In this document: positions 26,312 through 39,048 of the stretch, in pieces
Position numbering within the stretch: the stretch's first letter is position 1
Layout: every line of letters starts with the position of its first letter
Assembly: GCA_021775955.1 (NCBI GenBank)
Contig: JAJFGU010000011.1
Location: forward strand, 124,001 to 188,000
Length of the DNA: 64,000 nucleotides
Source: Alphaproteobacteria bacterium
GTDB lineage: Bacteria; Pseudomonadota; Alphaproteobacteria; Micavibrionales; Micavibrionaceae
Direction: 5' to 3'
Translations under genes and position numbers: made by a program
Notes under the pieces: model-generated
What the model was told of the DNA's origin: nothing
Databases searched by the model: none
What the model saw: the letters and a program-made list of their open reading frames with translations, nothing else

Positions 26312-28879
26312 ATGTCTTCGCGATATAATATTAAAGAAACCGAGGATAAATGGCGTAAAGTCTGGGAAGAACGTGAAAGCTTTAAAGTCACGGAAAACTC
26401 CGACAAGCCGAAATATTACGTCCTTGAAATGTTTCCCTACCCATCGGGCCACATCCATGTCGGCCATGCCCGCAATTACGTGATGGGCGATATTGTTGCC
26501 CGTTACCGCAAAGCCAAAGGCTTTAACGTCCTGCACCCGATGGGCTGGGATGCCTTTGGTCTGCCGGCAGAAAACGCAGCCATCGAGCGCGGTGAGCACC
26601 CGGATAAGTGGACCCATGAAAATATTGACACCATGCGGGTTCAGCTTCAATCCATGGGGCTGTCGATTGACTGGAGCCGGGAATTCGCCACCTGCGATGC
26701 CGATTACTACCGCCATGAACAAAAAATGTTTCTGAATTTCTATCGTAAAGGCATCGCCTACCGTAAAGAATCAATCGTCAACTGGGACCCGGTCGATCAT
26801 ACGGTTCTGGCCAATGAGCAAGTCATAGACGGCAAAGGCTGGCGCACCGGAGCCGCTGTCGAGCGCCGCAAACTCAATCAATGGTTCCTTAAAATCACCG
26901 ATTACGCGGAAGAACTGCTTGCCGGACTGGATCATCTGCCCGGCTGGCCGGAAAAAGTTCGCATCATGCAGGAAAACTGGATCGGCAAATCAAAAGGCGT
27001 TAATTTTCATCTCAAAATTGATGGCTCCGATGAAACGCTGGAAGTTTATACGACGCGGCCCGATACAATTTTCGGCGTGAGCTTCGCCGTCATGGCACCG
27101 GATCATCCTTTGTCTAAAAAACTGGGATGCGACAAAGACGGTTTTGATGACTTCATTCAGCAATGCCAAAGCACAGGCACATCAGAGGCGGCCATTGAGC
27201 AAGCCGAAAAAATCGGCTTTGATACGGGCTATCAAATTATCAATCCTTTTGATCCCTCCATAAAAATGCCGCTTTATATTGCCAACTACGTTTTGATGGA
27301 CTACGGAACCGGGGCCGTGATGGGCGTTCCCGGGCACGACCAGCGTGATTATGAATTCGCTACCAAATACGATCTCGATATCCCGCTTGTCATTCATCCG
27401 AAAGATTCATCGCCGGAAAAATTCACATTACAGGGCGAAGCCTATAACGGTGACGGTACCTTGATGAACTCACAATTTTTGGACGGCATGAATGTCACCG
27501 AGGCCATAGCCGCCACGATCCAAAAAATTGAAAAGCAAAAGATTGGACAGGGCACAACACAATTCCGCCTGCGTGACTGGGGCGTGTCTCGCCAGCGTTA
27601 CTGGGGCTGCCCGATTCCGTTTGTTCATTGCGAGGATTGCGGCATTGTGCCAATCCCTGAAGATCAGCTGCCCGTGACTTTACCGCAGGATGTTAATTTT
27701 GATGAGCCCGGCAATCCTTTGGAGCGCCACCCCACATGGAAAAATATCACATGCCCGGAATGCGGCAAAGACGCAGCGCGCGAAACCGACACCTTCGATA
27801 CATTTTTTGAATCCAGCTGGTATCAATTTCGTTATTGCGATCCGCATAACGAAAAACTTCCCGTTGCCAAGGACAAGGCCGCGTACTGGATGCCACCAAA
27901 AGGGGGGGTAGATCAGTATATAGGCGGCGTTGAGCATGCCGTGCTGCATTTGCTTTATGCCCGCTTTTTTACCAAAGCCATGCGCGATTGCGGCTATGTC
28001 GATTGTGATGAGCCTTTTACCGGCCTGTTCACACAAGGCATGGTCACGCACGCCACCTATAAAAATCAGGATGGAAAATTCCTTCTCCCCTCTGAAATAA
28101 TTATAGAAAATAATTCTGTGAAGGATAAGGATGGAAACCCTGTCACAATTGGCCGCATTGAAAAAATGTCCAAATCAAAAAAGAATGTCGTAGCACCGGA
28201 GGGAATCTCTGAAGCCTACGGCATCGATTCCGCACGATTATTCATGGTTTCCGATTCCCCTCCCGAGCGTGACGTTGAATGGACTGAGGGCGGAATCGAA
28301 GGCGCGTGGCGCTATGTGAACAAGCTGCACAGGCTTTTCTCTGAAAATCTGGAATCTCTGCCCTCGGCAGATGAAAAGGAGCCATCTGAATTTGATGAAG
28401 CGGCCTTGGGCCTTAGAAGAGCCACCCATAAAACCATTGCCGGAGTTGGTGAGGACATTGAAAACTTCCATATGAACAAGGCGGTAGCCCGCATACGCGA
28501 GCTATCCAACGCAATTGCTGATTTCAAAGGTGAGGGCTGGGCTCTCAAAGAAGCACTGGAAGCCCTCGCCAAACTTATCAATCCAATGATGCCGCATCTG
28601 GCCGAAGAGCTCTGGAACATGCTTGGTCATGACACGCTTCTCGTTGATGAGCCATGGCCAAATCTTCGTAAGAAATTACTTACGGAAGATAATGTGACGA
28701 TTGGCGTTCAGGTCAACGGCAAAATCCGCGCCTCGATCACTCTGCCGGTTGATGCCGATGATAAAGCCTTTGAAGATGAGGCTTTGGCACAGGATAATGT
28801 CAAAAAAGCTATCGAGGGCAAGCAGGTCCGCAAAGTCATTGTCGTGCCCGGTAAAATCGTTAATGTGGTGGTGGGATGA
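26312..28879 (+). CDS. leuS: Leucyl-tRNA synthetase
   Basis: A class Ia aminoacyl-tRNA synthetase that charges tRNA-Leu. The 855-residue protein has the HIGH-type motif HVGH at residues 49-52 ([15 protein letters not shown]), the CP1 editing domain with [12 protein letters not shown]-type sequence ([10 protein letters not shown]), a zinc-type insert ([15 protein letters not shown] and CPECGKDA), and KMSKS at 618-622. The C-terminal domain ends [15 protein letters not shown]. The length is normal. The stop overlaps the lptE start by 4 bases (ATGA), indicating translational coupling. Confidence 0.99.
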
Positions 28880-29382
28880 GAAAGCCAATCGCCATTTTTT
28901 CTGTTTTATTGCTGACGGCCTGCGGGTTTGAGCCGGTTTACGGCACGCTGGGGCAGGATGAATCTGCCGCGCAGGAAACTGTTGAATCAACACTGGCGCA
29001 GATTTCCATCGGCACTATTCCCGACCGTGAGGGGCAATATTTACGCAATGCGCTTATAGACCGTTTCTACCGTCATGGCCGACCAGCGGAAACCATCTAT
29101 GCGCTTGCGCTTGCGCCGATAGAGGAAAGACTGACCGATCTCGATATTACCAAAAGCTCGGACGCCACACGCGGGCAGCTGCGTTTGGAAACAGAGATTA
29201 AGCTGATCGATAAAAAAACCGGGGTCACTGTGATGGAGCGTGAGCTACGCTCCATCACCAGTTACAACATTTTAGGCAGTGAATTCACCAACCGCGTTTC
29301 CGAAGACAATGCCCGCCTTAATGCTCTTGACGATCTCGCCCGGCAAATTGAATTGCAGGTCAGTTTATATTTCAAGCGTTAA
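28876..29382 (+). CDS. lptE: LPS assembly lipoprotein LptE
   Basis: LptE plugs the LptD barrel and helps place LPS in the outer leaflet. The 168-residue protein starts with a lipoprotein signal, [15 protein letters not shown], and the CGF-PVYG sequence after the lipidated cysteine (about residue 16) is typical of alphaproteobacterial Lpt[16 protein letters not shown] and a C-terminal helix ([19 protein letters not shown]) also fit. It is coupled to leuS by ATGA overlap. In relatives holA follows directly; here a four-gene cassette separates them. Confidence 0.93.
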
Positions 29383-29460: not shown

Positions 29461-30909
29461 ATGTCTGAAATCAATGCCCGCGACCTGAAGGAAATCAAGA
29501 GCGAAGACGATGTTTTCGAGCTGTATCTTGGCGCGGGTACGGACTCCAAAGCCGGAATAGAGGTTGAAATTACCTTTTTCGATCCGGAGACGATGAACCA
29601 GATGAGCCTAGCCCAAAACAAAGTCCTGAAAAACGCGGCCCAGGCCCGTTTACCCGGTAGCGACTGGCTGCATAACGAGCCAACAGGCGAAATACTGGAA
29701 ATTGTTTCCAAAGCCGGATACCCGCATGAAATAAGGGATGTCCTGCGCGACACCAATGACAAAATCAAAATTGTGACGGATAAAGCCGCAGATATCGGCC
29801 TCAAACGATCCTACTTCCAGGAACTTCCCGACAAAACAGGGAAGGAACTTCTGGCTCATATCGTTGAAGGAGGAGACCGCTATCAGGTTATGTACTGGCC
29901 TTACCGCGAGGACATGACCGATATCGTCACCTATTTCGCTGTCTGCAAATCCAACCAGTTTTCCGTGAGCCATAAAGACCCACAGCATTTGATGGATAAT
30001 GTCCGCCGTCTTTATTTTATGGCGCCGTTTTTGTTCCTGCTTACCGACAATTCTTCCGGCTTTAATCAGGGAAAACCCTTTACCGGTCATCAGGGTATGA
30101 TGCACCGGACATCATTGGGGGATAGAGGCGGCGTATTGCCGTATATTTTTACAGCCGGCAGCGGAGAAGATTTCATTCGTGCCCATATTGATACCGTCAT
30201 GAACAATCCGCTTTTTATGCATTATGATGAAAACGCGACCCTGACCCGCATCCCATCGGGCACCTGGCACAGTTTTAACGATTTACGCGACAGAGGTCTA
30301 AACACGGCCAATAATTATTTTCTTGCGCAAAGCCTGCTCTGGCCTGACGTACAAATCGCACAGCTCAAAGACAGTGATGGAAATATCACCGGCCACCGTT
30401 ACGAGCCGCGTATGTTCGGCGTTGGTATCCACCAGCACCAAACCGGCTTTTTGATCACCACCGCGCTTGCTTTCAAACCCGCTTTTGCAGGTGCCGTTGA
30501 CGCGCTGCTGGAAGAATACGGCTTTGATACGGGTGACCTTGAAACTGCGCGCGAAAATCTGGAGGCCGCCTATAGCGCCGCCCAAAACCACAATGGAAAA
30601 TTCTTTGATATCATTTTTGGCACTGGCACCATGGCAGAATTCGCCAAAGACTTTGCTAATTTAATGGAGACAGCCCATATCGGCGACGGGCTGGATGACG
30701 AACTTGAGCCCCTCCTGTCTATCTGCCGCACAGGCTGCACCGATGGAAAGGTTAACCGAGTTTTATTCCCGACATTGGAAGAGACTTTGGAATTCCAAAA
30801 ATCCTACGATTCGGACATTTTCGAAGACCCCAATTCCTGCGCGCATATGATTTTTGAAAAACAGGTCGAAAGAAAATCAGGCCGCGCATGCTCCAATCTG
30901 GCGGCATAA
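29461..30909 (+). CDS. Glutamate-cysteine ligase-like protein
   Basis: A 482-residue soluble protein. GIEVEITFFDPETM at about 32-45 resembles the ExE strand of the glutamate-cysteine ligase (GCS2/carboxylate-amine ligase) fold, which joins glutamate to an amine using ATP. NQFSVSHKDPQHLMDNVRRL and a following NSSGFNQGKPFTGHQGMMHR match the order of conserved blocks in that superfamily, but overall similarity is low and the substrate cannot be read from sequence. The C-terminus has CRTGC and a terminal RACSNLAA. The context supports a peptide-ligase role: a GshB-like ATP-grasp gene lies 700 bases away and a GFA-family gene follows. Its stop is one base from the convergent methyltransferase stop. 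Confidence 0.55.
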   Translation: MSEINARDLKEIKSEDDVFELYLGAGTDSKAGIEVEITFFDPETMNQMSLAQNKVLKNAAQARLPGSDWLHNEPTGEILEIVSKAGYPHEIRDVLRDTNDKIKIVTDKAADIGLKRSYFQELPDKTGKELLAHIVEGGDRYQVMYWPYREDMTDIVTYFAVCKSNQFSVSHKDPQHLMDNVRRLYFMAPFLFLLTDNSSGFNQGKPFTGHQGMMHRTSLGDRGGVLPYIFTAGSGEDFIRAHIDTVMNNPLFMHYDENATLTRIPSGTWHSFNDLRDRGLNTANNYFLAQSLLWPDVQIAQLKDSDGNITGHRYEPRMFGVGIHQHQTGFLITTALAFKPAFAGAVDALLEEYGFDTGDLETARENLEAAYSAAQNHNGKFFDIIFGTGTMAEFAKDFANLMETAHIGDGLDDELEPLLSICRTGCTDGKVNRVLFPTLEETLEFQKSYDSDIFEDPNSCAHMIFEKQVERKSGRACSNLAA

Positions 30910-30910
30910 T

Positions 30911-31621
30911 TTAAGAAATACTTGATATCTTCACTATCGTTGAAAAGTGATGATCAAAAAAAACAATCTCCGCATGTGGTAAAACTTCTTTTACAAACTC
31001 AGAGAGCCAGTCCTGCGTAAAAATTGCCGAGCGAAAAACGACATCATCTTGTCTTTTTACTACAATCTCTTTTAACCCTGTTTCCTGCTCTTCTTCCACC
31101 GAAGCTGTTTTGTTTTCAGTTTGCGTATATGTTTTTAAACGAAGATCCGTTATATCGTTGTCGTCATTCCAGACACTGATAAGAATTTCACCGCGCTCGG
31201 ACAGACAGGAAACAATAGAATTCAAAGCTTTTTTTCTGTCTGTAAAAAAACTCAGGCTGTTGAACAATATAGCGACGAGATCAATTTTTTCTTCAATCTG
31301 CATGGTTTCAACAAAGTCCTGGATAATTCTTACGGATGGCAGATCAGGAAATAAGGGTATCGTTTCTTGCATATAATCTACGAATTTTTGTTCAGGCTCC
31401 AGACCAATCACTTCCCGCGTTGTTACTTTTCTTAGAGTATCAAGCTCACGAAACAGGCCACAACCCACGCTTAAAGACCTATCAACCTTGCTCTCCTGAT
31501 ATTCGGCCTTTATCCAGCCCTCTTCTTCCTTCCAGTACTTTTCTCCGGCAAATCCATGCCCCCAGGTCATTGTATTGATGTAAGCAGAAAAATCGTCGCT
31601 CCAATGGTATTCTTTTTTCAT
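30911..31621 (-). CDS. SAM-dependent methyltransferase, coupled to gshB
   Basis: A 236-residue class I methyltransferase. Motif I is RSLSVGCGLFRELDTL (VGCG binding SAM), the acidic strand-2 residue is in REVIGLEPEQKFVDYM, and motif IV/V candidates are KIDLVAILFNSLSFF and GEILISVWNDD. The substrate is unknown. Its ATG at 31621 overlaps the gshB TGA (ATGA), so it is translated with gshB as one unit; the frame upstream of this ATG is open but inside gshB. This tight coupling suggests that the methyl acceptor is the peptide product or an intermediate of the ligases. It is not a match to EgtD that I can see. Confidence 0.82.
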   Translation of the reverse strand: MKKEYHWSDDFSAYINTMTWGHGFAGEKYWKEEEGWIKAEYQESKVDRSLSVGCGLFRELDTLRKVTTREVIGLEPEQKFVDYMQETIPLFPDLPSVRIIQDFVETMQIEEKIDLVAILFNSLSFFTDRKKALNSIVSCLSERGEILISVWNDDNDITDLRLKTYTQTENKTASVEEEQETGLKEIVVKRQDDVVFRSAIFTQDWLSEFVKEVLPHAEIVFFDHHFSTIVKISSIS

Positions 31622-32547
31622 TCTGCGCCCGCAATTCTTTTCTCGAGGACATCCCACAAAAGAGATTCAAATTTCTTATCATAGATTTTGTTGAGTCTCG
31701 CCAGAGAGCCAATACTTCCGACATTTATTTCCATCAGATGCGATCCAATCAAATCAACGCCGACAAAGTGCAAGCCGCGTTCTTTCATCACCGCGCCAAT
31801 CTCTTCACACAAAGTGCACTCTTGCGCCGAAGGCTCATAAGCCTCATCCATGCTATCACGAAAGATACGAAATTCTTCACCTGACGGGATAGTATTCAGC
31901 GCACCGACAATCTCTCCATCAAAGAGAATAATCCGCTTATTGCCGTCTTTCACTTCTTTTAAAAACGGCTGAAACATCAAAGGCTCACCGTGTTTTTCAA
32001 GCGCCTTAGCTGCGTCGTTAACATCAGAGCTGCGCGTGATACCGTGACCATGAAAGCTATAGAGCGGCTTAATCACCACATCTTTATGTACCGCAAAGAA
32101 CGTTTTAATTGCCATCATATCGCTGCTAACCAGTGTCGGTGGCATGTGCTCTTTAAAATTAAAATTAAAAAGCTTGTCCGGCGTGTTGAGAATCCAGAAC
32201 GGATCATTGGTCACAAACACGCCCTGGCTTTTAAGCCGTTCCAGAATATAGGTCGTGGTTACAAAACCCATGTCAAAAGGCGGGTCCTGACGAAAAAACA
32301 CGGCGCCAAACCCAGACAGATCAACCGGAGCATAACTCCCTAACTCATAATACTGATCCTTTGATAAATCGATATGAGCCGGCGCGGCATACGCCGTGAT
32401 AACCCCCTTGTCATCAAGGCTCAGGTGCTCCGGTAGATAATGAAAAACTTCATAACCCCGGTTGCAGGCTTCCTGCATCAGTAAAAGAGAAGCGCTGTAG
32501 TGTCTATCCGCCTCCGCGAGCGATTCCATCTGAAAGGCAATTTTCAT
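31618..32547 (-). CDS. gshB: Glutathione synthetase-like ATP-grasp ligase (divergent)
   Basis: A 309-residue ATP-grasp protein clearly related to bacterial GshB, which adds glycine to gamma-glutamylcysteine. Shared blocks are FFRQDPPFDMGFVTTTYILE, VIKPLYSFHGHGI, VKDGNKRIILFDGE and FVGVDLIGSHLMEINV. It differs where E. coli GshB has its Gly-rich and substrate loops: the GMGGASIF loop becomes SFHGHGIT, the ETRGNLAAGG loop becomes EEFRIFRDSMDEAY, and EINVTSPT becomes EINVGSIG. These changes could alter the accepted amino acid. The ATG at 32547 is divergent from the GFA gene; the methyltransferase is coupled downstream. Confidence 0.82.
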   Translation of the reverse strand: MKIAFQMESLAEADRHYSASLLLMQEACNRGYEVFHYLPEHLSLDDKGVITAYAAPAHIDLSKDQYYELGSYAPVDLSGFGAVFFRQDPPFDMGFVTTTYILERLKSQGVFVTNDPFWILNTPDKLFNFNFKEHMPPTLVSSDMMAIKTFFAVHKDVVIKPLYSFHGHGITRSSDVNDAAKALEKHGEPLMFQPFLKEVKDGNKRIILFDGEIVGALNTIPSGEEFRIFRDSMDEAYEPSAQECTLCEEIGAVMKERGLHFVGVDLIGSHLMEINVGSIGSLARLNKIYDKKFESLLWDVLEKRIAGAE

Positions 32548-32572
32548 GCTGGCTAAGTAGCACGGCTTTGTT

Positions 32573-32590
32573 TTACCATCAAGGAATCAT
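32573..32590. repeat. 18-base direct repeat, left copy
   Basis: TTACCATCAAGGAATCAT occurs here and again, exactly, at 33021-33038, where it contains the holA ribosome site and the AT of its start codon. The two copies flank the GFA gene. After a 7-base difference, AACCTG also follows in both. This looks like a duplicated holA leader made when the GFA gene was inserted. Confidence 0.8.
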
Positions 32591-32605
32591 AACCTGAGGT
32601 TTTAG

Positions 32606-33040
32606 ATGAGTTATAAAAATACCCTTAAAGGAGGCTGTCACTGCGGTAACGTGACATTCGAATTATATACCAATAAGGATGAAACAGAGCTTGCGCCCCG
32701 AACATGTCAATGCGGTTTATGCAGAAAGCATGATGCGAGCTGGATTTCTGATCCGGAAGGCGAGGCCCAAGTTAAGTATGAGAATGTGGAGGAAGTTAGT
32801 AAATACCGTTTTGGCCACTCCACATCTGATTTTATTATCTGCAAGAAATGTGGTGTTTTAACAGTAGCTTTGTGTGAATTAGAGGGAGTTACAAAAGCTG
32901 TCCTTAATATCAAATCCATGTTGGATCATAAATTTACCAGCGAACCCATCATGACCAATTTTGATGCAGAAAATGTTGAAGAGCGTCTTGCGCGCCGTAC
33001 TCAAAACTGGACAGGAAAGGTTACCATCAAGGAATCATGA
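32606..33040 (+). CDS. GFA family (glutathione-dependent formaldehyde-activating-like) protein
   Basis: A 144-residue zinc protein of the GFA/CENP-V family. Both zinc sites are present: GGCHCGNVTFEL, CQCGLCRKHDASW and ICKKCG. Family members such as Paracoccus Gfa bind glutathione, though most have no proven reaction. The ATG at 32606 has a GAGG ribosome site. The stop overlaps the holA start by 4 bases (ATGA). The last codons (VTIKES) lie in an 18-base sequence that is repeated just upstream of the gene, so its 3' end was built from holA leader sequence. Its neighbours suggest that it uses the thiol made by the cassette. Confidence 0.9.
   Translation: MSYKNTLKGGCHCGNVTFELYTNKDETELAPRTCQCGLCRKHDASWISDPEGEAQVKYENVEEVSKYRFGHSTSDFIICKKCGVLTVALCELEGVTKAVLNIKSMLDHKFTSEPIMTNFDAENVEERLARRTQNWTGKVTIKES
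33021..33038. repeat. 18-base direct repeat, right copy
   Basis: Exact copy of 32573-32590. It encodes the C-terminal residues of the GFA protein and holds the holA ribosome site AAGGAA, so it is probably the original copy. Confidence 0.8.
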
Positions 33041-34056
33041 AACTAACCTGGAAGCAGATAGAACCCTTCGTTAAATCTCCCGACCCCAAGGCGCGGGTGG
33101 TTTTGGTATACGGCCCGGATAACGGTTTGATGCGCGAGCGCGCCAAAACCATCGGCCTGTCGGTTGTTGAAGATTATACCGATCCGTTCAATGTCGCCGC
33201 CCTCAGTGCCGAGCAGCTGGGTGACGACCCGGCGCGGTTATCGGACGAAGCGCATGCGATTTCGATGATGGGTGGCGGGCGGCTAATCCGCATTGAAAAT
33301 GCCGGCGACAAGCTGACCACCCTGATTAAGGACTATCTTGAAAGCCCGTCCGAGCAAAATCTTGTTATTTTGGAGGCCGGGGAACTTGGCCCGCGTTCAT
33401 CTTTGCGCAAAGCCTGTGAGTCGGCTAAAAATGCCGCCGCCCTGCCCTGCTATGTCGAGGATGAGCGTGATTTATCGCGTTTAATCAGGGAGATGCTGCA
33501 AGATGCTCATCTACAAGCCGAACCCGACGCCGTGAGTTGGCTGGCCGCCAATCTGGCTGGAAATCGGGCGCGGGCCAGAAACGAACTTTTGAAACTTATT
33601 ACTTACAAAGGTGAGGAGGCCGGCGCGATAACACTGGACGATGCGCGGGCTGCCTGCGGTGAGGCCGGCGCGGATTCCCTGGATACCCTGATCTACAGCG
33701 CCGGAGGCGGAAATTCCAAAGCCGCGCTGCAAGCTTATGACCGGCTGCTTGCCGAGGGCGTACCGTTTATGGCGATTTTACGCAGCCTGCAGAATCACTT
33801 CCGCCGCCTGCATGTCACCAAAACACGGATGCAAAGTGGCGACAGCGTCGAATCGGCGATGAAAAAGCTCGCTCCACCGATATTTTTTAAGCAAGAACAA
33901 GTGTTTAGAGCCCAGTTGCAACGCTGGTCCCTGCCTGTGCTTGAGCAAATCGCCGCGAAACTGATGGCGCTCGAGGCCCAGTGCAAAAAAACCGGCGCCA
34001 TGCCGGAAACCCTTTGTTCTCAGGCGCTTTTATCGATTAGCAAAGCGGCGCGCTAA
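33037..34056 (+). CDS. holA: DNA polymerase III delta subunit
   Basis: HolA opens the beta clamp within the clamp loader. The 339-residue protein has the delta fold signature: KARVVLVYGPDNGLMRERAK at the start, SMMGGGRLIRIENAGDKLT, and a C-terminal domain with FMAILRSLQNHFRRLHVTK. It follows lptE in the usual alphaproteobacterial order; here the GFA gene overlaps its ATG by 4 bases. The length is normal. No terminator is obvious before the next open frame at 34127. Confidence 0.94.
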   Translation: MKLTWKQIEPFVKSPDPKARVVLVYGPDNGLMRERAKTIGLSVVEDYTDPFNVAALSAEQLGDDPARLSDEAHAISMMGGGRLIRIENAGDKLTTLIKDYLESPSEQNLVILEAGELGPRSSLRKACESAKNAAALPCYVEDERDLSRLIREMLQDAHLQAEPDAVSWLAANLAGNRARARNELLKLITYKGEEAGAITLDDARAACGEAGADSLDTLIYSAGGGNSKAALQAYDRLLAEGVPFMAILRSLQNHFRRLHVTKTRMQSGDSVESAMKKLAPPIFFKQEQVFRAQLQRWSLPVLEQIAAKLMALEAQCKKTGAMPETLCSQALLSISKAAR

Positions 34057-36467: not shown

Positions 36468-37139
36468 TTATTCACAGATTCGGTGTAAGCTCGAGATACG
36501 CAAAATCATGCCTTTTGGGTCTGTTTCGCTCGGAAATTGTGCAAGATCAAAACTGAATTTTTGCTGGGCCCGCTCTATTTCTTCTTGTGCTTTTTCACCC
36601 TTCAGAAACAAAAGGACCAGCTCCGGATTTTCCTCGGCAAACGGCAAATTATACTCACAAAGCGCCTCCAGGCTTGCCAGCGCCCGTGCTGTCATGACAT
36701 CAGGTCGGATCTTCCCTGCCATATCCTCAATTCGCTGATTATGAATGGTGACCGGCGTATCTGTTTCACGTGAAACGGTGCGCAAAAACTCGCATTTTTT
36801 GCCATCGGATTCGACGAGATGAACATCCAGCTCCGACCTCAATATGCTCAGCACCAACCCTGGAAATCCGGCGCCGCTACCCATATCCATTAAAACCAAC
36901 TTGCCTTTCCCGCGAAAGCGGGAATCTTCTTTTGACGCTGCAGATCCCTGCTTTCGCAGGGATGACAGATTTTCTTTAGGGAGAAAATCCGCCAGCTGTA
37001 TCGAATCGTTAAAATGCCGCTCCCTGGCATTTTCGATGGCCTGATTGCTAACCAGATTAATGGCCTTTTGCCATTTGAGCAGGAGCGCATGGTAAACCTC
37101 AAGCTTCTCCTGAGCTTCACGTGAAACATCAGGCGGCAT
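36468..37139 (-). CDS. rsmG: 16S rRNA (guanine-527-N7)-methyltransferase with inserted repeat
   Basis: RsmG (GidB) methylates G527 of 16S rRNA with SAM. The 223-residue protein has [34 protein letters not shown] and the expected [16 protein letters not shown]. Between the N-terminal helices and the first strand is an extra stretch, about residues 57-78 ([20 protein letters not shown]), encoded by a palindromic repeat in frame. The ATG at 37139 overlaps the mnmG stop by 11 bases and fits the family N-terminus. Two parS sites lie inside the gene, each read as V-S-R-E. Confidence 0.95.
36762..36777. promoter_or_regulatory. parS site 1, within rsmG
   Basis: TGTTTCACGTGAAACG differs from the canonical 16-base parS palindrome only at the last base. 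It is about 0.4 kb from parA. Confidence 0.93.
36907..36966. repeat. Palindromic repeat inserted in frame in rsmG
   Basis: Two hairpins, TTCCCGCGAAAGCGGGAA at 36907-36924 and ATCCCTGCTTTCGCAGGGAT at 36944-36963, followed by GAC. The same family is found in intergenic DNA at 54341-54395 and elsewhere. Here it is translated as part of RsmG without breaking the frame, much like the palindromic elements described in Rickettsia genes. Confidence 0.82.
37113..37128. promoter_or_regulatory. parS site 2, at rsmG 5' end (variant)
   Basis: AGCTTCACGTGAAACA keeps the central CACGTG and the right arm but differs from the consensus at two positions of the left arm. It lies just inside the rsmG start, next to the mnmG stop. 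It may be a weaker site. Confidence 0.8.
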
Positions 37140-39048
37140 GAGCCCCCCGCTGCTTTTTAGGCGGGCCTTTTTTGACATGGCGCAGCAGGGTAATTACAGC
37201 CGCCGGAGTGACGCCGGGAATACGTGACGCTGCTCCTAAAGTGACGGGCCGCGCCTGCTCCAGCTTTTGCCGCACTTCGTTGGACAGGCTCCCGATTTGC
37301 GCGTAATCAAGGCTTTTGGGCAGTTCCAGCGCTTCATCCTTACGAAAGGCGCGAATATCGGCGTCGTGGCGCTCCATATAGCCGGCATAAAGCGCATCGA
37401 TTTCAATCTGCTCACGAATTTCGGCCTCAACACCGCCAAGCTCCGGCCAGACGGACTGCAGCTGCTCCCAATCAATATCAGGATAAGCCAGCAGCGCCGC
37501 CACATCGCGGCGGATTCCGTCTTTGTTGACACCAATGCCATAGGCCTCAAGCTCATTTGGCGTGGCCTGCAGGGATTTCACCAGATCACGGGCCTGCCCT
37601 AATTTCTTTGACTTTTCGGTCCAGACCTTCTCGCGCTGCGAACCGACACAACCAAGCGCAAGCCCCCTGCCCGTCAGGCGCTGATCGGCATTATCGGCGC
37701 GGAGTCTTAAACGATATTCTGCCCGGCTGGTAAACATGCGGTAAGGCTCGGGCGCACCTCTTGTGGTAAGATCATCGATCAAAACCCCAATATAGGCTTC
37801 GGCTCGATCCAGTGTGAAAACTTTATTAGAACCTTGGGCTGTTTCACGTGAAACGCTCGATTCTCCATTGGCGGCCTGCAGCGCGGCATTAATCCCCGCC
37901 ATCAGCCCCTGCGCCGCCGCCTCTTCGTACCCCGTTGTGCCGTTGATCTGACCGGCGAGAAACAGGCCGGGAATACGCTTGGTTTCTAAGGTATTTTTCA
38001 AATCCCGCGGATCAACATAGTCATACTCGATGGCATAACCCCATTCCAGAACCTCTACATTTTCAAGGCCTTTGATGGAACGAATATAGGCGTCCTGAAC
38101 CTCTACAGGGAGCGAGGTTGAAATCCCGTTGGGATAGACCGTATGATCGTCCAGCCCCTCCGGCTCGAGGAAAATCTGATGACGGGCCTTATCGGCAAAG
38201 CGCGTAACTTTATCTTCGATCGAGGGGCAATAGCGCGGCCCGGTGCCAGAAATATTGCCCGCATACATGGCCGAGCGATGGATATTTTCCTGGATGATTT
38301 GATGGGTTTTTTCATTGGTATAGGTGATATGGCAGGGAATCTGTGGCACTGTGATTTTCTCGTTCAGATAGGAAAACGGGACCTGCGGATCATCTCCCGG
38401 CTGCTCGTCCAAAACGTCCCAGTTGATCGTCCGGCCATCAAGCCGGGCAGGGGTGCCGGTCTTGAGACGACCCAGCGGGAATTTCATGCGCTCGAGCGTC
38501 TCTGCCAGACCAATGGTTGGCGCTTCTCCGACGCGGCCGGCCGGTATTTGCTCCTCACCACGATGTATCATACCGCGCAAAAATGTGCCAGTGGTCAGCA
38601 CCACAGCGCGGCAGGGAACGGTCTCCCCGGCTAGTGTTGTCAGGCCTTTAATACTGCCGTCTTTATCAAGAACCAGATCATCCGCAGCGCCTTCAACAAG
38701 CGTCAAGTTGGGGTAGTCCGAGAGTTCTGCCTGCATCGCCTCGCGGTAGAGCTTACGATCCGCCTGCGCCCGTGGCCCGCGCACAGCGGGACCTTTGGAG
38801 GCATTGAGCATCCGGAACTGGATCCCGGCCTGGTCGATGATACGGCCCATCAGCCCGTCCAGCGCGTCGATCTCGCGTACTAGATGGCCCTTGCCCAGCC
38901 CGCCAATCGCCGGGTTGCACGACATAGCACCAATGGTGTCAAGCTTATGGGTGAGCAGGGCGGTATTGGCGCCCATACGCGCAGCGGCAGCGGCGGCTTC
39001 ACAGCCCGCATGACCCCCGCCAACAACTATGACATCAAAGTTTTTCAT
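37129..39048 (-). CDS. mnmG: tRNA U34 carboxymethylaminomethyl synthesis protein MnmG
   Basis: MnmG (GidA) is the FAD protein that works with MnmE to modify wobble uridine 34. The 639-residue protein starts [19 protein letters not shown] (dinucleotide-binding GxGxxG). Family motifs include [40 protein letters not shown] and [19 protein letters not shown]. The ATG at 39048 matches the family. mnmE is upstream at 39236-40648 and rsmG overlaps downstream. A parS site lies inside. Confidence 0.98.
37840..37855. promoter_or_regulatory. parS site 3, within mnmG
   Basis: TGTTTCACGTGAAACG, one base from consensus. In mnmG it encodes part of [10 protein letters not shown], a poorly conserved loop, so it could be kept for ParB binding without harming the enzyme. 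Confidence 0.93.

Follow-up and report, generated by a model that had tools for sequence, protein, structure and literature searches.

The subject of this analysis is a divergent ligase gene, here called GCLx, and its pairing with gshB in an alphaproteobacterium of the family Micavibrionaceae (assembly GCA_021775955.1, contig JAJFGU010000011.1, positions 124,001 to 188,000 of the forward strand; the whole 64,000-nucleotide stretch is referred to as the window). The source genome (G000) measures 2.32 Mb and is 99.96% complete. Four genes lie here between lptE and holA, and an earlier note, made from the sequence alone, had described them as one glutathione-type cassette that might make and use a methylated or otherwise modified thiol or gamma-glutamyl peptide. 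All four open reading frames, with their coordinates and strands, were as that note had given them, and the features of the locus, in window coordinates, are the following.

28876..29382, plus strand: lptE, PF04390 above cut-off; the left conserved flank, with an ATGA overlap with leuS
29461..30909, plus strand: GCLx, 482 aa, a divergent member of the glutamate-cysteine ligase (GCL) superfamily; the core gene conserved at this locus
30911..31621, minus strand: methyltransferase (MT), class I S-adenosylmethionine type, 236 aa, an orphan; PF08241 at 26 bits, above cut-off
31618..32547, minus strand: GshB, PF02951 and PF02955; a divergent long-branch lineage
32573..32590, plus strand: left copy of the exact 18-bp direct repeat TTACCATCAAGGAATCAT, flanking the GFA gene
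32606..33040, plus strand: GFA-family protein, PF04828 above cut-off; upstream of holA
33021..33038, plus strand: right copy of the direct repeat TTACCATCAAGGAATCAT, overlapping the holA start
33037..34056, plus strand: holA, TIGR01128 at 198 bits against a cut-off of 80; the right conserved flank

The genes leuS, lptE and GCLx are read on the plus strand, MT and GshB face GCLx on the minus strand, and GFA and holA follow on the plus strand. The stop codons of GCLx and MT are 1 bp apart, GCLx being thus convergent with the GshB-MT pair, and within that pair the ATG start of MT overlaps the gshB stop (GCA GAA TGA / ATG AAA), so that the ATGA coupling described earlier is real in the sequence. 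The order leuS-lptE-GCLx-holA is kept in relatives, and the lptE-holA interval in other genera holds varied additional genes, which marks it as a site of gene turnover. The four genes do not form one cassette, since conservation at the locus is limited to GCLx and, in some genera, to GshB.

The GCLx sequence alone found no match in Pfam and none in a single-sequence search of the PDB, and it reached only 13.7 bits (E=0.016) against the 463-bit cut-off of TIGR01436, below the curated threshold for GCS2 or plant-type GCL. An alignment profile was needed to place it. The profile built from 27 relatives matched plant GCL (2gwc/6gmo) in the PDB at E of about 1e-15 and YbdK at 1e-4, and single members of the same set matched PF04107 (12 of 27), TIGR01436 (9 of 27) and TIGR02050 (10 of 27). 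The AlphaFold model (pLDDT 93.9) has 2gwc as its best PDB fold (TM 0.68/0.74, E 9e-13), followed by YbdK 1r8g and then by the E. coli GCS structures 2d32/1va6. Ten residues, G32, E34, E36, E73, E80, R140, S168, N285, R313 and E315, are invariant among the 27 divergent relatives; in the profile alignment E34, E36, E73 and E80 fall on the acidic motifs of plant GCL, E315/R317 were paired through the motif with ExR in canonical GCLs, and in GCLx the GxExE and E..(5-6)..E motifs keep their acidic residues invariant, as is also the ExR motif. Thus profile, fold and catalytic residues place GCLx in the GCL superfamily as a divergent member scoring below the curated cut-offs, and the earlier description of the 482-residue protein as a GCL-like ligase is borne out.

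With the plant and alphaproteobacterial type of GCL (PF04107 GCS2, TIGR01436; 2gwc, 6gmo) GCLx shares a nearly full-length fold, the GxExE and E-P..E metal-site motifs, the RY, Q-x-[SN] and ExR motifs, and a predicted role ahead of GshB. It differs from them by the lack of a Pfam match, by its conserved lptE-holA position, by an identity of about 15% (15% to the canonical GCLs of the order in a profile-profile alignment with E=8e-11), and by its separate clade, parted in the tree from those same GCLs of the order by a branch 2.94 substitutions per site long. The YbdK carboxylate-amine ligases (TIGR02050, 1r8g) share with it the superfamily fold and a weak profile match, whereas the structural match to them is weaker than that to GCL, and GCLx co-occurs with GshB. 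Both GCLx and gshB are under purifying selection. Published surveys distinguish three GshA groups (summarised in PMC7278568). Literature searches turned up nothing published about glutathione synthesis in Micavibrio or about the GCLx family. The clade fits none of the profiles searched, and annotation would miss it.

In the order-wide survey of 142 genomes, GCLx was found in 56 when distant members were included, and its close-to-intermediate forms (E below 1e-50) were found in 34 genomes, all of one family. Both lptE and holA flank the gene in 24 of the fetched loci, and one of the two does so in 6 more, usually at a contig end; convergence with gshB at the locus was seen in the window's genus and three other genera. 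Close orthologues belong to records of Micavibrio sp. or unclassified Alphaproteobacteria, and a contig scan with the close GCLx profile, a method reaching close relatives only, returned matches from this lineage only. GshB (PF02951) occurs in 47 of the 142 genomes and canonical GCS2 in about 34. The 47 genomes with GshB divide into 30 with GCLx only, 14 with canonical GCS2 only, 1 with both and 2 with neither, and GshB is present in 31 of the 34 GCLx genomes (Fisher p 3e-16). The GshB tree splits by GCL type in a single change, and in the canonical genomes gshA and gshB are mostly divergent neighbours, judging by coordinates. Of the four families, GCLx and GshB recur together in other genomes, while MT and GFA do not.

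The alternation of GCLx and canonical GCL among GshB genomes is the main evidence that GCLx likely does the job of GshA. Searches of the source genome for PF04107 and PF04262, with positive controls that worked, found none, and one for PF08886, made without a positive control, was likewise negative; a hidden canonical gshA elsewhere in that genome was therefore rejected, and the earlier proposal of a ligase working with GshB is upheld, in a genome where no known gshA family was found. On this comparative evidence GCLx is most likely the substitute for GshA in these genomes of the Micavibrio lineage.

The distant GCLx-like members have multiplied in one family (f6), with 2-4 matching places per genome in most of its genomes. 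Tandem GCLx-like pairs, plus a third copy and canonical GCS2 copies, were seen at its loci L067, L068, L069, L086 and L087, in genomes where no PF02951 GshB was found; such multiplication where PF02951 was not found indicates that the wider GCLx family has other activities. In genome G086 a metallo-beta-lactamase-fold protein that resembles persulfide dioxygenase (L042:5650-6510; judged from its sequence only) is encoded close to GCLx.

The GshB of the window carries both expected domains, GSH-S N and ATP-grasp (PF02951 at 101.6 bits, PF02955 at 129.8 bits), has the fold of the prokaryotic GshB 1gsa (TM 0.92), and retains the ATP-grasp core with its lysines and E/N metal residues. Against G101 its dN/dS is about 0.07, with dS saturated, consistent with purifying selection. 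However, it falls under both NCBIfam glutathione synthase equivalog cut-offs (PRK05246, 268.6 vs 272; TIGR01380, 250.7 vs 299) and belongs to a lineage set apart in the GshB tree by a branch of 1.67 substitutions with support 100. Members of the lineage occupy the lptE-holA locus in genera g1, g11, g15 and g36, while in g12 they lie at another place. This lineage has lost the loop R..P..GE.R.N...GG, the GxGG form of the P-loop and the TSPT motif, all of which are kept in every other sampled GshB of the order; GshBs of the class at about 40% identity also keep the loop. Thus, the canonical E. coli loop 225-241, RIPQGGETRGNLAAGG, is replaced by TIPSGEEFR--IFRDS, the P-loop GMGG by SFHGHG, and TSPT by GS[IV]G. 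During catalysis the loop of the E. coli enzyme closes over its substrates, and a change of GshB acceptor in a lineage that has lost this loop would be a reasonable supposition. A second GshB in the source genome was sought and rejected, the two further PF02955 matches both lacking PF02951.

Strong matches to glutathione reductase are present in none of the 8 genomes with the long-branch GshB lineage, compared with 18 of the 23 other GCLx genomes (Fisher p=1.6e-4). Together with the loss of the loop and of TSPT, this makes it possible that the window GshB adds an altered final amino acid. Elsewhere in the order glutathione reductase occurs without GshB in 29 genomes (G009-G021, G041, G044, G089-G099 and G114-G121 among others), which suggests that these take glutathione from prey or the environment.

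The two remaining genes have a different history. The GFA protein shows the zinc-type CxC motifs of its family and a Pfam match above cut-off (PF04828, 31.6 bits vs 24.3); it differs from the family at large in being a single-gene insertion coupled to holA, its use of a thiol being only putative. The gene is AT-rich relative to the window (41.4% GC) and overlaps holA by ATGA, so that its coupling is with holA and not with GshB. It lies between the exact copies of the 18-bp repeat, for which chance would give 0.08 occurrences when up to 3 mismatches are allowed; the insertion between the repeats (32573-33038) is of 430 bp and holds this single gene, whose final codons and stop derive from the repeat and the holA start. 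The congener G102 has one copy of the repeat before holA and no GFA (L035, about 9394), that is, an empty site. The GFA gene is, therefore, a recent single-gene insertion, separate from that of MT; its proposed membership of the cassette was abandoned, and, as a conserved link, its role as a thiol user coupled to GshB was likewise rejected. For a target duplication made by a transposon, the repeat is long. In G101 the position of GFA, between gshB and holA, is taken by an unrelated 335-aa open reading frame (L034:9415-10419).

The MT gene has 39.5% GC (38.8% at third codon positions) against 49.8% for the window. No homologue was found in three congeners, on plasmids or in a sample of 384 other genomes of the class, nothing rose above noise in the order, and the PDB yielded no significant relative. 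In G101 and G102 the stops of GCLx and GshB abut, which presents an empty site for MT. The gene is probably a recent single-gene insertion and most likely acts on something other than the thiol pathway; its membership of the pathway, which the earlier note had put forward, was rejected on these absences, on its AT-rich composition and on its absence from the locus in relatives.

Taken together, the locus quite probably encodes a two-enzyme glutathione-type pathway, GCLx in place of GshA and then GshB, with MT and GFA as separate recent insertions that would stand outside it. GCLx would activate the gamma-carboxyl of glutamate with ATP and join cysteine to give gamma-Glu-Cys, to which the ATP-grasp GshB would add a third residue, normally glycine. 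The analysis itself showed the homology, the fold, the conserved catalytic residues and locus, the complementary distribution with canonical GCL, the GFA empty site and the orphan status of MT; we infer the two reactions, and that the third residue is glycine or something close to it. Several observations weigh against it: the co-occurrence statistics lack phylogenetic independence, with essentially one split in the GshB tree; the 100% complete genome G058 has GCLx and glutathione reductase without GshB; GCLx is also a fold relative of the YbdK-type carboxylate-amine ligases; gshB of the congener G102 is split over two frames (L035:8447-9369), by sequencing error or decay; and the MT-GshB overlap implies co-translation in the source genome. 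That overlap, with the adjacency of the four genes, is what speaks for a four-gene pathway with a methylated product and GFA as the thiol user, as first proposed. We regard it as very improbable, since MT and GFA, both AT-rich, are missing from the locus in all relatives examined, congeners included, MT lacks homologues in the sampled class, and GFA is coupled to holA and has its empty site in G102.

Somewhat better placed, if still unlikely, is GCLx as a YbdK-like carboxylate-amine ligase of another substrate, with gamma-Glu-Cys reaching GshB by import or from another enzyme. YbdK 1r8g/1tt4 are indeed its next fold and profile matches, and the expansion of the wider family in f6 without GshB shows that some members have other jobs; however, the clade at the lptE-holA locus is found together with GshB and in alternation with canonical GCL, a true GCL ranks first in the structural comparison, and the source genome yielded no further GCL candidate. 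A tentative but more serious possibility, which overlaps the two-enzyme glutathione-type reading in its enzymes and differs in the last residue, is that the divergent GshB adds a residue other than glycine or has another acceptor, the genus making a glutathione analogue. It draws on the 1.67-substitution branch, on the replacement of the loop, P-loop and TSPT, the loop being kept in other sampled GshBs, and on the lack of glutathione reductase in 8 of 8 genomes of the lineage vs 5 of 23 other GCLx genomes; it is opposed by the retained core residues and overall fold of GshB, by a score little under one of the glutathione synthase cut-offs, by glyoxalase II (TIGR03413) above cut-off in G000, and by the genomes of family f2, which have canonical GshB and are also often without glutathione reductase. 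The fuller and rather more speculative form would be a predatory-bacterium lineage that uses a new GCL family and a re-tooled GshB to make a new analogue of glutathione, differing in its third residue, and that has given up glutathione reductase.

Of the modified product suggested earlier, the gamma-glutamyl ligase part stands and the methylated thiol has lost its main support; some modification is still possible through the loop-less GshB and the missing reductase, and not through MT. The ligase pair was correctly recognized, but the novelty was credited to the wrong gene: what is of interest is an unannotated GCL clade and an altered GshB. Annotation would wrongly place organisms with GCLx among those that cannot make glutathione. 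The GshB lineage offers natural acceptor-loop variants for study, and with the pattern of gain and loss among Micavibrio relatives it can be tested whether predators or epibionts live on host thiols.

Elsewhere, no Rfam match was found within the window, and the 15-bp repeat D3 (31000/31702) was put down to chance. The gene rsmG (gidB; window 36468-37178, minus strand) contains an in-frame palindromic-repeat insertion that G101 and G102 do not have, and which looks like an insertion of the Rickettsia-palindromic-element type in a housekeeping gene.

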